From positions 20,335,409 through 20,399,408 of the forward strand of contig OY727093.1 in the NCBI GenBank assembly GCA_963402885.1: a stretch of 64,000 nt of DNA, given 5' to 3'. The translations under genes and the position numbers were made by a program. Position 1 is the first letter of the stretch; the number at the start of each line of letters is the position of its first letter. Under the pieces are notes generated by a model. The model saw only the letters and a list, made by a program, of their open reading frames with translations, did not search any database and was not told where the DNA came from. This document shows positions 42,780 through 50,365 of this stretch, in pieces. The DNA comes from Antedon bifida. Lineage: Eukaryota; Echinodermata; Crinoidea; Comatulida; Antedonidae.

Positions 42780-44440
42780 GTATAGCCTCAACCAGACAGG
42801 CAGAAGGTAAAAATACATATATGGCTTTTCTTGATTTTCGAAAGGCCTTCGATACTGTATGGAGAGACAAATTGTTAACCACAGCATGGGATATTTGTAT
42901 TAAAGGAAATGTATGGAAAATGTTATTTAATATTTATAATAATGTTCACTGCAAAGTAAAATTTGGAGAAATCGAAACAGAATATTTCTAAATTGAAGAA
43001 GGTGTTAAACAAGAAGTGCATTATCACCTATTTTATTTTGTATATACATATTGTAAATGATTTTGCCAAACTTCTAAGGGAAAATAAAATGGGCATAGAA
43101 ATATGTAATGTTCAATTAAGTGGTCTATTCTGGGCAGATTAATGTATCTCTGCTAGCTAATGACGAAAGGGAGTTACAAGAAATGCTTGATCTAGCTACA
43201 AAATTTAGTAATGACTACAAATTAGAATTCAACTATGAGAAATCCAATGTTTTAATTACTGGAAAAAGAACAGACAAAACAGAGGTTATGGCCATTAAGT
43301 GATCATTATATTTCAGAAGTTAATAATTAGGATCCCATATTACAGATCTCTTTCCGATCACTGTCATATTAAAGAGGTTATTAAGAAGAAATATAGAATT
43401 ATAGCGTATATAAAGTCAATTATTGATGATCAAGATGATTATAACAGAGATTTGGAGATTTGTTGTTGAAGACTCTAGGTTTTCCTTCAATTAACTATGC
43501 ATGCTCTACATATGTCTGTGGTGGTATAAGTGATATTCAAAATTTTGAAAAATTACAAACCTAAAATGGCAAAGGCGATACTCAAAGCACCACGTAGCAC
43601 AGCTTTGTACGGTGATCTAGGTTGGAAGTCTATTTCAACTATTCAAGACATGCAACAAATTGATTTTTTAAATCGTTTAGTAAAGATGGATATGAGTCGA
43701 TGGCCCAAATTGGCTTTTAGTGCTATGCTATTCATTAGTCATACGTCTACATTTTAAGTGGAAATGGTACAACCATATGCAAAATACTCTAGACTTGTGT
43801 GGAATGAGCCACAGGTTTTAATTAACGACAGATAATAACAATCAATGGGTAAACATTTCAAAAAATATAATTAAGTAATGTATTGATGGTCCAAATGTTT
43901 GACCAAGCCAGAAAGAAAACTTCATTGATGAATTATGTCACACTTAAATCCACACTATATATAGAGCCGTATCTTTTAGATAAATTAGATTTCTTAGGGG
44001 CAAGTCTTAAATTTAAGGCAAGATCAAATACACTTGCACTTAACCTTAAGAAATCTATATGGGAAGAAGATAATGATGGTACATGTCCTATATGTAAAAA
44101 TGATAAAGAAGACATTATACATTTTATATGTGGTTGTACTTCCTACTAGGTAAAGTATTAAAACTAAAACTAACCCTAGGATGTGACACTAGCCTTCCTA
44201 CTGGGACGCAACCAGTAATTGTTAATAAAGTAAATGAAATATTTGACATGTTTTGCAAAAGCTATATAAAACAACCATGGGCTTCACGTACCAAGATGTT
44301 AAAGATTTAAATACCAGTCTGGTACTACTAATGTAGTACTCTGTAAATAGAGTAATGATTAACATGCTATACCGGTGGGCCTACATACTTTACATTAAAT
44401 ATATTTACTTTATAACGAAATAAAGATTTTTTAGCGTCCA
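42780..44440 (+). mobile_element. Decayed LINE, same family as the minus-strand LINE at 17777
   Basis: Plus-strand reverse transcriptase remnants: FLDFRKAFDTVWRDKLLTTA near 42830, LSGLFWAD near 43120, ERELQEMLDLATKFSNDYKL then EFNYEKSNVLITGKRT near 43170-43270, ALYGDLGWKSIS near 43605, and at 43883-44149 LLDKLDFLGASLKFKARSNT followed by a CPICKNDKEDIIHFICGC zinc motif. Each has a close counterpart in the 17777-22400 LINE. Stops and frameshifts are frequent, so the copy is old. The 3' end is near 44430 (AACGAAATAAAGATTTTTTA). Confidence 0.8.
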
Positions 44441-44632
44441 CAGTATAGTTAAGATTTTTCATAGTAACTCATGACGTTATGTGAATGTATTTTTATATAT
44501 AAATCCAAAGGCAAATTACTGAAAAAATGACAATGCTGTGGGTATCAGTGGCTGGATCTCATTGGAGATACAAAAAAAAGAAGTGAAAAGCTAAATCAAA
44601 ACGATAAAGTAAAACAGCCAGAAAAGTTAGCA

Positions 44633-44663
44633 GAGCTTTCGGGCAACACTAGCCCTTCATCAG
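44633..44663 (-). ncRNA. Hammerhead-ribozyme-like motif, family 1, minus copy
   Basis: Read on the minus strand: CTGATGA, one extra A, GGGC, a 7-base loop, GCCC, GAA, then AGCT and C. Bases before it (UUGCA) and after it (UGCUAA) can pair as stem I. The order CUGAUGA - stem II - GAA - stem III - cleavage C is that of a hammerhead. The extra base between CUGAUGA and stem II, and a stem III that is only a self-complementary AGCU, depart from the consensus. Confidence 0.5.
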
Positions 44664-44799
44664 TGCAAGTCATTTATATATATATATAAACACAAGAGGC
44701 AAAGAACATTAATTCTAAACCGCCCGGTGATATACTGAAATTTAATTAATTAATTTGAAACGATAAAGATGAGGAAATCTGTGAGAATGAGAAAAAGTC

Positions 44800-44869
44800 G
44801 GCCCAACCGAGACTCGAACTCGGACGCCTGCTTGATATGCAGATGTCCTAACCATTAGACCACTGGGGC
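44800..44869 (-). tRNA. tRNA-like gene, anticodon AUC, copy A
   Basis: Minus-strand 70-base cloverleaf like copies B-D, with A box TGGTCTAATGG and B box GAGTTCGAGTC. It lacks one variable-loop base and has one acceptor-stem change (GGGCC for GGGGC), so it is probably a pseudogene. A TTTTT terminator follows. Confidence 0.6.
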
Positions 44870-45162
44870 TTTCATGTTATTGTTCGAACTCGATTGGATA
44901 ACGACTCTTTAACATTCTCGGCGTGGTACGGCGGAACAGCACTAGTCCTCAGTTGTACGCACGCGCAACAGAGATCAAATTGATACGCCCTCATCTTTCA
45001 GTATTTTTATTCACGAGGCGGGATCTCCGAAGAGATACTTTTATATATATAAACACAAGAGGCAAAGAACATTAATTCTAAACCGCCCGGTGATATACTG
45101 AAATTTAATTAATTAATTTGAAACGATAAAGATGAGGAAATCTGTAAGAATGAGAAAAAGTC

Positions 45163-45233
45163 GCCCCAACCGAGACTCGAACTCGGACCGCCTGCTTGAT
45201 ATGCAGATGTCCTAACCATTAGACCACTGGGGC
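45163..45233 (-). tRNA. tRNA-like gene, anticodon AUC, copy B
   Basis: Minus-strand 71-base cloverleaf with a 7-bp acceptor stem (GCCCCAG with TTGGGGC, one G-T pair), D arm GTCTAATGGTTAGGAC, anticodon arm TCTGC-ATATCAA-GCAGG and T arm CCGAG-TTCGAGT-CTCGG. The anticodon reads AUC (Asp, GAU codon), although the D and T arms look like tRNA-Glu. An ACTTTTT terminator follows. Confidence 0.7.
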
Positions 45234-45274
45234 TTTCATGGTATTGTTCGAACAATATATATATATATATTGCA

Positions 45275-45305
45275 CTGATGAAGGGCTAGTGTTGCCCGAA
45301 AGCTC
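45275..45305 (+). ncRNA. Hammerhead-ribozyme-like motif, family 1, plus copy
   Basis: Exact inverted counterpart of 44633-44663: CTGATGA, A, GGGC, TAGTGTT loop, GCCC, GAA, AGCT, C. Flanking TTGCA and TGCTAA give a short stem I (A-U, C-G, G-C). Same deviations from the consensus. Confidence 0.5.
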
Positions 45306-45537
45306 TGCTAACTTTTCTGGCTGTTTACTTTATCGTTTTGATTTAGCTTTTCGCTTTTTTTATTTGTATCTCCATTGAGATCCAGCCACTGATACCCACA
45401 GCATTGTCATTTTTTTCAGTAATTTGCCTTTGGATTTATATATATATATATATAAATCAAAGAGCTGCATAGGCAGGATATAGAAAAAAATCAAGATCAA
45501 ATAAGTTAAAACTGCCTCAATATAGATTTATTTTTAC

Positions 45538-45566
45538 GACATGTTTCGGGCATAGCCCATCATCAG
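45538..45566 (-). ncRNA. Hammerhead-ribozyme-like motif, family 2, minus copy
   Basis: On the minus strand: CTGATGA, one extra T, GGGC-TAT-GCCC, GAA, ACATGT, C, so the canonical GUC precedes the would-be cut. It is the inverted partner of 45976-46004. Confidence 0.5.
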
Positions 45567-45975
45567 GTGAAGAGAATTGTAACAAAGGATAACATATATA
45601 AGTCACAAAATTACATAATAAAACAAATCAGCCAATCAAAGATGTTAACAAACAAAAGGCATAGTTATAAAGGCACGCCTCCAAAAGCTATGGGGTACAA
45701 AGCAGAAATGGTTGCTTATAAAGCAGGAAAGATCTTTTAAACATTAATTTTGCCAGAGACATTCACATATTAACAATTATTTACACTTGAAGCTTTTTTC
45801 TTTGTTTTAAATTTCCTGCTTTATAAGCAACCATTTCTGCTTTGTACCCCATAGCTTTTGGAGGCGTGCCTTTATAACTATGCCTTTTGTTTGTTAACAT
45901 CTTTGATTGGCTGATTTGTTTTATTATGTAATTTTGTGACTTATATATGTTATCCTTTGTTACAATTCTCTTCAC

Positions 45976-46004
45976 CTGATGATGGGCTATGCCCGAAACA
46001 TGTC
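45976..46004 (+). ncRNA. Hammerhead-ribozyme-like motif, family 2, plus copy
   Basis: CTGATGA, T, GGGC-TAT-GCCC, GAA, ACATGT, C, followed by GTAAAAA. Upstream TTCAC can pair with GTAAA (one mismatch) as stem I. Stem III (ACA/UGU) has no loop and is palindromic, as in hammerheads that work as dimers. The single unpaired base after CUGAUGA is not canonical, so activity is uncertain. Confidence 0.55.
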
Positions 46005-46383
46005 GTAAAAATAAATCTATATTGAGGCAGTTTTAACTTATTTGATCTTGATTTTTTTATATATATATATATTCGAGTCTCGGTTGGGGCGACTTTTTCT
46101 CATTCTCACAGATTTCCTCATCTTTATCGTTTCAAATTAATTAATTAAATTTCAGTATATCACCGGGCGGTTTCGAATTAATGTTCATTGCCTAATGTGT
46201 TTATATATATAAAAGTATCTCTTCGGAGATCCCGTCTCGTGAATAAAAATACTGAAAGATGAGGGCGTATCAATTTGATCTCTGGTGCGCGTGCGTACAA
46301 CTGAGGACTAGTGCTGTTCCGCCGTACCACGCCGAGAGTGTTAAAGAGTCGCTATCCAATTGAGTTTGAACAATACCATGAAA

Positions 46384-46454
46384 GCCCCAGTGGTCTAATG
46401 GTTAGGACATCTGCATATCAAGCAGGCGGTCCGAGTTCGAGTCTCGGTTGGGGC
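46384..46454 (+). tRNA. tRNA-like gene, anticodon AUC, copy C
   Basis: Plus-strand 71-base cloverleaf identical in structure to copy B, with all four stems paired and intact A and B boxes. ACTTTTTC follows as a pol III terminator. It is in a tandem 364-bp unit, so it could be a real multi-copy tRNA gene or the head of a tRNA-derived repeat. Confidence 0.7.
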
Positions 46455-46747
46455 GACTTTTTCTCATTCTCACAGATTTCCTCATCTTTATCGTTTCAAA
46501 TTAATTAATTAAATTTCAGTATATCACCGGGCGGTTTCGAATTAATGTTCTTTGCCTAATGTGTTTATATATATAAAAGTATCTCTTCGGAGATCCCGTC
46601 TCGTGAATAAAAATACTGAAAGATGAGGGCGTATCAATTTGATCTCTGGTGCGCGTGCGTACAACTGAGGACTAGTGCTGTTCCGCCGTACCACGCCGAG
46701 AGTGTTAAAGAGTCGCTATCCAATTGAGTTTGAACAATACCATGAAA

Positions 46748-46818
46748 GCCCCAGTGGTCTAATGGTTAGGACATCTGCATATCAAGCAGGCGGTCCGAGT
46801 TCGAGTCTCGGTTGGGGC
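46748..46818 (+). tRNA. tRNA-like gene, anticodon AUC, copy D
   Basis: Identical to copy C, exactly 364 bp downstream. Same terminator and flanks. Confidence 0.7.
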
Positions 46819-46926
46819 GACTTTTTCTCATTCTCACAGATTTCCTCATCTTTATCGTTTCAAATTAATTAATTAAATTTCAGTATATCACCGGGCGGTT
46901 TCGAATTAATGTTCATTGCCTAATGT

Positions 46927-46928
<2 letters not shown>

Positions 46929-46962
<34 letters not shown>

Positions 46963-47240
46963 ATTTTTTTTTTTTTATATCATTTTGTATTATTATGTAT
47001 TATTGTTATTACTATACTGTATAGGAAACCATTTCAATATTAACTATCATGATAATTTTAATAGCATCATCAACAATTATTTTTGTAACTACTTCCTCTT
47101 TATGTATATATATATAGGTTGGGGCGACTTTTTCTTATTCTCACAGATTTTCTCATCTCTATCGTTTCAAATTAATTAATTAAATTTCAGTATATCACCG
47201 GGCGGTTTAGAATTAATGTTCTTTGCCTAATGTGTTTATA
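46929..47240. repeat. (TA)n tract and truncated tRNA cassette tail
   Basis: A long (TA)n run at about 46927-46958, AT-rich filler, another (TA)n at 47105-47115, then the 3' end of the cassette (GGTTGGGGCGACTTTTTCTT to TTTGCCTAATGTG). Confidence 0.7.
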
Positions 47241-47269
47241 TATATATATATAACTAAAATGTATCAACT

Positions 47270-47452: not shown

Positions 47453-50365
47453 TCACTAACCCTTTTCATAACATTTTCAATTATTTCAACTCACTAACCC
47501 TTCCTTTCATAACATTTTCAATTATTTCAACTCACTAACCTCCTTTCATAACATTTTCAATTATTTCAACTAACTAACCTCCTTTCATAACATTTTCAAT
47601 TATTTCAACTAACTAACCTCCTTTCATACCATTTTCAATTCACTAACCCACCTTTCATAACATTTTCAATTATTTCAACTCACTAACCACCTTTCATAAC
47701 ATTTTCAATTATTTCAACTAACTATTCCTACATTTCATAACATTTTCAATTATTTCAACTCACTAACCTCCTTTTATAACATTTTCAATTATTTCAACTC
47801 ACTAACCTCCTTTTATAACATTTTCAATTATTTCAACTCACTAACCCTTCCTTTCATAACATTTTCAATTATTTCAACTCACTAACCTCCTTTCATAACA
47901 TTTTCAATTATTTCAACTCACTAACCTCCTTTCATAACATTTTTAATTATTTCAACTCACTAACCCTTCCTTTCATAACATTTTCAATTATTTCAACCCA
48001 CTAACCCTTCCTTTCATAACATTTTCAATTATTTCAACTAACTAACCTCCTTTCATAACATTTTCAATTATTTCAACTCACTAACCCTTCCTTTCATAAC
48101 ATTTTCAATTATTTCAACTCACTAACCCACCTTTCATAACATTTTCAATTATTTCAACTCACTAACCACCTTTCATAACATTTTCAATTATTTCAACTCA
48201 CTAACCCTTCCTTTCATAACATCTTCAATTATTTCAACTCACTAACCCTTCCTTTCATAACATCTTCAATTATTTCAACACACTAACCCTTCCTTTCATA
48301 ACATCTTCAATTATTTCAACTCACTAACCCTTCCTTTCATAACATCTTCAATTATTTCAACTCGCTAACCCTTCCTTTCATAACATTTTTAATTATTTCA
48401 ACTCACTAACCCTTCCTTTCATAACATTTTCAATTATTTCAATTCACTTACCCTTCCTTTCATAACATTTTCAATTATTTCAACTAACTAACCTACTTTC
48501 ATAACATTTTCAATTATTTCAACTCACTAACCTCCTTTTATAACATTTTCAATTATTTCAACTCACTAACCCTTCCTTTCATAACATTTTCAATTATTTC
48601 AACTCACTAACTTCCTTTCATAACATTTTCAATTATTTCAACTCACTAACCTCCTTTCATAATATTTTCAATTATTTCAACTCACTAACCCTTCCTTTCA
48701 TAACATTTTCAATTATTTCAACTCACTAACCCTTCCTTTCATAACATTTTCAATTATTTCAACTCACTAACCCTTCCTTTCATAACATCTTCAATTATTT
48801 CAACACACTAACCCTTCCTTTCATACATTTTCAATTATTTCAACTCACTAACCTCCTTTCATAATATTTTCAATTATTTCAACTAACTAACCTCCTTTTA
48901 TAACATTTTCAATTATTTCAACTCACTAACCCTTCCTTTCATAACATTTTTAATTATTTCAACTCACTAACCCTTCCTTTCATAACATTTTCAATTATTT
49001 CAACTCACTAACCCTTCCTTTCATAACATTTTTAATTATTTCAACTCACTAACCCTTCCTTTCATAACATTTTCAATTATTTCAATTCACTAACCCTTCC
49101 TTTCATAACATTTTCAATTATTTCAACTAACTAACCTCCTTTCATAACATTTTCAATTATTTCAACTCACTAACCTACTTTTATAACATTTTCAATTATT
49201 TCAACTCACTAACCCTTCCTTTCATAACATTTTTAATTATTTCAATTCACTAACCCTTCCTTTCATAACATTTTCAATTATTTCAATTCACTAACCCTTC
49301 CTTTCATAACATTTTCAATTATTTCAACTCACTAACCTCCTTTCATAACATTTTTAATTATTTCAACTCACTAACCCTTCCTTTCATAACATTTTCAATT
49401 ATTTCAATTCACTTACCCTTCCTTTCATAACATTTTCAATTATTTCAACTAACTAACCTACTTTCATAACATTTTCAATTATTTCAACTCACTAACCTCC
49501 TTTTATAACATTTTCAATTATTTCAACTCACTAACCCTTCCTTTCATAACATTTTCAATTATTTCAACTCACTAACTTCCTTTCATAACATTTTCAATTA
49601 TTTCAACTCACTAACCTCCTTTCATAATATTTTCAATTATTTCAACTCACTAACCTCCTTTCATAACATTTTCAATTATTTCAACTTACTAACCCTTCCT
49701 TTCATAACATTTTAAATTATTTCAACTCACTAACCCTTCCTTTCATAACATTTTCAATTATTTCAACTCACTAACCCTTCCTTTCATAACATCTTCAATT
49801 ATTTCAACACACTAACCCTTCCTTTCATAACATTTTCAATTATTTCAACTCACTAACCTCCTTTCATAATATTTTCAATTATTTCAACTAACTAACCTCC
49901 TTTTATAACATTTTCAATTATTTCAACTCACTAACCCTTCCTTTCATAACATTTTTAATTATTTCAACTCACTAACCCTTCCTTTCATAACATTTTCAAT
50001 TATTTCAACTCACTAACCCTTCCTTTCATAACATTTTTAATTATTTCAATTCACTAACCCTTCCTTTCATAACATTTTCAATTATTTCAATTCACTAACC
50101 CTTCCTTTCATAACATTTTCAATTATTTCAACTAACTAACCTCCTTTCATAACATTTTCAATTATTTCAACTCACTAACCTCCTTTTATAACATTTTCAA
50201 TTATTTCAACTCACTAACCCTTCCTTTCATAATATTTTTAATTATTTCAATTCACTAACCCTTCCTTTCATAACATTTTCAATTATTTCAATTCACTAAC
50301 CCTTCCTTTCATAACATTTTCAATTATTTCAACTAACTAACCTCCTTTCATAACATTTTCAATTA

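Follow-up and report, generated by a model that had tools for sequence, protein, structure and literature searches.

Hammerhead-ribozyme-like motifs with an extra base before stem II in repeats of putative Penelope-like elements of the crinoid Antedon bifida

Analysis of a 64,000-nucleotide stretch of the genome of the crinoid Antedon bifida (contig OY727093.1, positions 20,335,409 to 20,399,408 of the forward strand; hereafter the window) revealed four hammerhead-ribozyme-like motifs lying in two families of inverted repeats, which we read from sequence as pseudo-long terminal repeats (pLTRs) of Penelope-like elements (PLEs). All copies in the window are solo and lack a coding frame, and most are truncated. 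The repeats, identified by sequence comparison, and their motifs are as follows:

44488..44670, minus strand: family 1 repeat, read as a PLE pLTR, truncated at its 5' side at unit position 172 of 347
44633..44663, minus strand: hammerhead-like motif of family 1, CUGAUGA-A-stem II (GGGC/GCCC)-GAA-AGCU-C, predicted cut after 44633
45270..45450, plus strand: family 1 repeat, read as a PLE pLTR, truncated at its 5' side at unit position 174
45275..45305, plus strand: second hammerhead-like motif of family 1, predicted cut after 45305
45454..45483, minus strand: 'tail' extending the inverted family 2 copy on its 3' side, its last bases overlapping the listed end of the arm
45478..45730, minus strand: family 2 repeat, read as a PLE pLTR, inverted shorter copy (unit positions 83-335) facing the full copy head to head
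45538..45566, minus strand: hammerhead-like motif of family 2, CUGAUGA-U-stem II-GAA-ACAUGU-C, predicted cut after 45538
45730..46064, plus strand: family 2 repeat, read as a PLE pLTR, full 335-nt unit without a coding frame
45976..46004, plus strand: hammerhead-like motif of family 2 within the full repeat, predicted cut after 46004

An earlier note on this DNA had described four such motifs in two inverted families sharing nothing beyond the motif core, and this description stood up to analysis. All four motifs are present letter for letter, both family 1 copies reading CTGATGA-A-GGGC-TAGTGTT-GCCC-GAA-AGCT-C and both family 2 copies CTGATGA-T-GGGC-TAT-GCCC-GAA-ACATGT-C. The arms of family 2 (45478-45730 and 45812-46064, 253 nt) are 100% complementary, and those of family 1 are 93-96% complementary in three pieces; the family 2 tail stands on the inverted copy in the window, not on the forward copy, and was found in other genomic copies. 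The best local match between the two families is the motif itself (positions 179-205 against 247-269, E 0.004), with all other matches at E of 0.17 or above. The motifs are also confirmed as non-random. The pattern CTGATGANGGGC-(3-12)-GCCCGAA occurs four times in the window and never in 100 dinucleotide shuffles of it, and in the genome searched (315.6 Mb, 27 contigs) it was found at 780 places, most of them repeat copies and not independent events, while the same pattern read backwards was found at none.

The motifs retain the residues expected of a hammerhead, including the core C3 U4 G5 A6 N7 G8 A9 and G12 A13 A14, and the A15.1-U16.1 pair with an H17 cut site, in the form GAA-ACAUGU-C or GAA-AGCU-C. 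They depart from the standard arrangement, which has no insertion between A9 and stem II, in carrying one extra base there. A looser pattern with hardly any constraint on stem II, CTGATGA-(8-16)-CGAAACRYGTC, matched 215 places genome-wide and none in the reversed control; among the 100 matches listed, most are variants of CTGATGA-T-GAGAATAGTTTCTC-GAAACATGTC, which define a third family, and the rest are chiefly family 2. At one family 3 locus (L050) the motif lies downstream of a fragment matching the reverse transcriptase domain RVT_1 (E 1.5e-08) and is separated by about 107 nt from a preceding frame that contains a MYIGET stretch and gave no Pfam match. A series of a family 3 variant (GAGAATATATTTATC and the like) with a mismatch in stem II runs along G000:C10:11310014-13310603, nearly all on one strand among the matches listed, and is probably an amplified array. 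Further types of stem II with the extra base (GY/RC as the second pair) gave 17 matches against 10 in the reversed control and no additional family.

Comparison of the three families revealed paired changes in stem II: families 1 and 2 have GGGC/GCCC, family 3 has GAGAA/UUCUC. Both strands differ between families while the core and the extra base are kept and, in families 2 and 3, the ACAUGU-C end is constant as well; with one base skipped, the stem is closed by G10.1-C11.1. Skipping one base after CUGAUGA allows 11 of 12 pairs over three distinct family 1 motifs and 60 of 64 over 16 distinct family 2 and 3 motifs, compared to 7 of 12 and 30 of 64 when no base is skipped, with the qualification that some family 1 loci were retrieved with a pattern that itself requires stem II pairing. 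Family 1 has A as the extra base and the other two families have U, apart from a C in one of the 16 distinct family 2 and 3 motifs. The earlier note had raised this base as a caveat; the base is real, since pairing needs the skip, and it is a weak objection because the natural plus-strand hammerhead of chrysanthemum chlorotic mottle viroid (CChMVd), according to the passages available from PMC3705267, carries an extra A10 between A9 and G10.1 that moderately lowers its rate. At the same position U is reported there to raise the cleavage rate three- to fourfold and C or G to be harmful.

The repeats of families 1 and 2 lie beside frames of PLE type, as seen directly in other genomic copies. For family 2, the final codons of one frame (G[IT]NVQF[RI]SF) run directly into the unit at 17 of 23 loci (L014-L036, in which L015-L017 are copies of one duplicated region and L019 and L028 overlap), and this frame is open for at least 120 codons at 11 of the 23; one copy scanned (L071) matched GIY-YIG at E 0.0042, below the curated cut-off. 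On the 5' side, an inverted partial unit at C10:10084828 is followed by a full unit carrying the motif and then by an N-terminal frame, which continues without stops from L012:2461 into L072. There, reverse transcriptase and GIY-YIG domains follow one another in a single frame, both below their curated cut-offs (RVT_1 at residues 5-192, E 7.4e-07, 29.5 bits against a cut-off of 29.6; GIY-YIG at residues 425-461, E 0.0069). The 3' repeat of this copy was not found within L072, and 3' repeats were seen in other copies, so that the family 2 pLTR is documented on its 5' side (L012) and on its 3' side (the 17 loci above) in different copies.

Family 1 has a unit of about 347 nt (L030:1916-2262) and 1212 exact 3' anchors in the genome, and its repeat was seen on the 3' side of the frame only. 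In L034 some 65 nt separate the unit from the end of a preceding GIY-YIG frame (E 1.3e-05, above the cut-off), and in L036 some 150 nt separate it from a related frame; RVT_1 was matched below the cut-off in a separate fragment (L031). A connection of family 1 with another GIY-YIG-like frame (L024/L070) was dropped because the family 1 copies there are truncated and the L070 frame has no Pfam match. Comparison of the PLE protein with phage records and with PDB sequences gave no match. The inverted partial pLTR, the tail and the AT-rich insertion site are all present, and head-to-head inverted pLTRs, optional tails and AT-rich insertion sites have been described for PLEs in the parts available of PMC3846280 and PMC11167929. 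Minimal hammerheads are known in PLE pLTRs (reviewed in PMC6155905), and the suggestion of the earlier note that the motifs belong to PLE terminal repeats gained support from the reverse transcriptase and GIY-YIG frames found beside the repeats.

Taken with the residues and pairings described above, these placements point to the motifs being minimal type I hammerheads in PLE pLTRs whose position 10 is taken by an extra base, A10 in family 1 and U10 in the other two, a reading to which we assign a probability of roughly 85%. On this reading they are new members of the known class of minimal PLE hammerheads and would probably work only as dimers or with a protein. The stem III strand is self-complementary (ACAUGU or AGCU), as anticipated for the dimer type with a tiny stem III, and closure on itself would leave a 2-nt loop; such a stem is too short for self-closure, and pairing would therefore occur only between two copies. 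A double hammerhead would thus arise when two motifs pair by their stem III strands, perhaps kept together by the protein that the element encodes, and multi-unit transcripts would be trimmed by cleavage following the C of UC. Transcription, dimer formation, help from a protein and cleavage are steps that we infer. PLE hammerheads may cleave as dimers, according to the portions available of two reviews (PMC7761336, PMC6466107), and the available part of PMC11167929 reports that an Anolis PLE hammerhead cleaved only once the element's protein was added; we expect protein-dependent cleavage here too.

Known systems share several of these features and differ in others. The minimal type I PLE hammerheads of Cervera & De la Pena 2014 and Lunse, Weinberg & Breaker 2017, as portrayed in the reviews through which we know them (PMC6155905 and, in part, PMC7761336), share the pLTR location, the core, the missing or tiny stem III and the dimer architecture, whereas the three families here add one base before stem II. 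The PAc hammerhead of Poseidon from Anolis carolinensis (PMC11167929, in the part available) likewise belongs to an element with reverse transcriptase, GIY-YIG, pLTRs and AT-rich target DNA; unlike PAc, the motif here precedes the coding frame at the single 5' side that was read (L012). The CChMVd hammerhead shares the extra base between A9 and G10.1 but comes from a viroid, not a retrotransposon, in the available text of PMC3705267. Endonuclease-containing Penelope elements of Adineta vaga, as far as the accessible text of PMC3846280 describes them, have a head-to-head inverted shorter pLTR, an optional tail and a TATA-like box in the pLTR, and the term hammerhead is absent from that paper. 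Our analysis adds three PLE families whose hammerheads all bear the viroid-type extra base, with no claim that this is a first report for PLEs. The Rfam models missed the extra-base form here, and searches that permit it may find more.

Several results weigh against this reading. The Rfam hammerhead models gave no match at the gathering score in the window and no match at E of 10 or below in positions 43500-46300. Stem I is weak: family 1 has 3 bp, family 2 has 2 bp, and family 3 has either a single pair or three pairs with a bulge; within family 1, pairs 1.1 to 1.3 form in 22, 20 and 20 of 22 distinct copies, and in families 2 and 3 support across copies is weak. In energy modelling the double hammerhead reached -19.5, -12.2 and -3.2 kcal/mol in the three PLE families, and other predicted folds were better in all three (dimer minima of -24.2, -19.9 and -24.4). 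Families 2 and 3 show weak matches beyond the motif (best E 0.048), which both have in common and which make them not fully independent, and plain local comparison of families 1 and 3 does not recover the motif. No selection on the motif was seen within families, its window ranking 143 of 317, 71 of 307 and 25 of 219 in samples that for families 1 and 3 were partly selected via the motif. The earlier note had proposed that an absence of covariance across copies would count against the hammerheads; the paired changes seen between families speak for the stem, and within families the motif is not specially conserved.

The starts of genomic copies add a further difficulty, specific to the idea that cleavage made the termini of these elements. 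Family 1 starts were read at 45 places, drawn from the first 48 anchors on contig C1 with three tandem neighbours omitted; the start of 49 recorded among them for L003 stems from a spurious chain, and the main match of L003 begins at 156. For family 3 all 42 anchor places were used, seven of them in loci already read; 41 could be placed (L141 could not), and four rows represent duplicate readings (L128/L129, L143/L155). The base directly following the predicted cut (unit position 210 in family 1) is the start of 1 of 45 family 1 copies and 0 of the 41 family 3 copies placed. The motifs lie inside the repeat. The earlier note's reading of them as termini made by cleavage is not supported, and cleavage as the event setting the 5' ends of genomic copies is rejected. 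Both window copies of family 1 (starts at 172 and 174) fall where ten of the 45 family 1 starts cluster, at unit positions 169-177 (L030:2084-2092), 2-10 nt upstream of C3 at 179, against about 1.3 expected by our own arithmetic if starts were even, in an interval picked after seeing the data. A second group of eight lies at 205-218, and 23 of the 45 starts are upstream of C3. Family 3 starts fall at -17 to -9 from C3 in 7 of 41 and at -61 to -55 in 6 of 41. A weak TATA-like stretch lies some 30 nt above the family 1 cluster, and TATATAAG lies 31 nt upstream of C3 in family 3. Judging from these positions, the family 1 cluster just above the hammerhead is possibly a transcription start, a pattern not repeated in family 3. 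Since copies start upstream of or away from the cut, RNA left uncut at the motif would have templated many of them.

One alternative is that the motifs descend from PLE hammerheads but have lost catalysis, and that the sequence persists because it serves some other function, for instance as a binding site for the element's protein on the RNA. Weak stem I pairing, the competing folds and the lack of excess conservation within families are all in keeping with such a loss, as are the reports, in the available part of PMC11167929, that Anolis hammerhead mutants left insertion in vitro unchanged and that RNA ends were not found at the hammerhead cut site. Nevertheless, the core residues, stem II pairing and UC cut site are retained in three PLE families, with the repeats of families 1 and 2 otherwise dissimilar, and the Anolis hammerhead does cleave when its protein is added (PMC11167929, same part). 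We regard loss of catalysis as a possibility to be taken seriously, with a chance of somewhat more than one in three.

A far less probable explanation takes the repeats for retrozymes, a class of small non-autonomous elements with hammerheads that spreads through RNA circles. The unit sizes (335 and about 347 nt) and the many solo copies would fit, same-strand direct neighbours occur (family 1 fragments in L115), and two family 1 motifs lie 328 nt apart at C1:17559663/17559991, positions taken from the pattern listing alone. PLEs, however, also occur in tandem (PMC11167929, in the part available), and the family 1 and family 2 units are both joined to PLE coding frames. A retrozyme-like family does exist in the same genome, but its hammerhead is a different, canonical one without the extra base. 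A canonical hammerhead search matched 125 places genome-wide compared to 30 in the control, and 86 of the 100 matches listed are CTGACGA-GATCT-AATA-AGATC-GAAAC or near variants, with at least six pairs among them 275-284 nt apart. The unit is 282 nt (L116:1272-1553), with a canonical type I hammerhead and sometimes in tandem pairs, and the family was also found at L009, L113-L115 and L117-L120, many copies lying in or beside TA runs. Its best dimer fold in energy modelling consists of the double-hammerhead stems plus one more pair. The best genome-wide match to Rfam Hammerhead_1 (26.9 bits, E 0.029, below the cut-off) falls on a member of this family, in a search in which 73 of 31850 candidates were scored and 11 of 14 control genomes also gave matches, none above the cut-off. 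Metazoan retrozymes, in the available sections of PMC7229834, resemble the repeats described here in having type I hammerheads in repetitive DNA, as does the 282-nt family, and differ from the PLE repeats in being non-autonomous with a canonical hammerhead.

Chance resemblance in two palindromic repeats, to which the absence of an Rfam match and the departure of the extra base from the standard consensus might be put down, is hardly credible given the counts of 0 in 100 shuffles and 0 against 780 for the reversed pattern, the motif as best match between families 1 and 2, and its presence in a third PLE family.

The retrozyme-like family was compared with the PLE repeats in location. On contig C1, five of seven retrozyme-like loci have a family 1 motif no more than 1 kb away (from nine matches, one omitted as outside the family and the pair 22316671/22316953 counted once), compared to a mean of 0.03 for seven random positions on C1, which never reached five in 20,000 draws; the association was spotted first and then counted on the same data. 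Among 18 family 3 loci taken as a comparison, with one close pair merged, none lies within 1 kb and one within 2 kb. On C7, neither of two retrozyme-like loci is near a family 1 motif among the family 1 matches listed, which reach 9.42 Mb. TA-run targets in common could alone give this neighbourhood because every insertion adds new TA runs. The neighbourhood fits, without proving, mobilisation of the retrozyme-like family by PLEs, a role proposed for PLEs and still open according to the portions available of PMC7229834 and PMC7761336. A separate palindromic element in the same locus as the 282-nt unit (L116:715-900) has a hammerhead-like string, CTGATGATGATGACC..GGTCGAAAGTAC (778-807), followed at 875 by a stretch like the family 2 tail.

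The PLE repeats adjoin a further repeated element, present as two blocks in the window:

44679..45253, minus strand: tandem repeat of 364 nt containing tRNA-Asp(AUC), left block
46072..47255, plus strand: tandem repeat of 364 nt containing tRNA-Asp(AUC), right block

The 3' ends of all these elements are alike, reading TTGGATTTATATA in family 1, TTTGATTTATATA in family 2, TTGGATATATATA in the retrozyme-like family and GTTTATATATA in the tRNA-Asp(AUC) element. Seven retrozyme-like unit ends lie at GATTGGATAT, next to a TA-rich run; this point is internal to the repeat unit and does not coincide with the hammerhead cut. Two more units (L117, L119) have variant ends. A junction inside the unit and off the cut would be as expected from internal initiation by a PLE reverse transcriptase. 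We tentatively propose, while considering it rather unlikely, that one PLE machinery serves the autonomous PLEs with extra-base (A10/U10) dimer hammerheads, the canonical retrozyme-like family and the tRNA-Asp(AUC) tandem element, all with (TA)n insertion and like 3' ends. With PLEs and retrozyme-like elements both in TA runs and with like end sequences, this genome offers a natural test of whether PLEs mobilise retrozymes.

Most ends of the tRNA-Asp(AUC) repeat read as given above, which is retroelement-like, and in some copies elsewhere (L114, L117, L118) the beginning falls at a different point of the unit, next to TA runs or to other repeats. Finally, two features lie further along the window: positions 48001-50000 show extreme strand asymmetry, with a GC skew of -0.996 over 2 kb, and the region at 53.7-56.8 kb contains repetitive frames of the SLTSFHNIFNYFN type.
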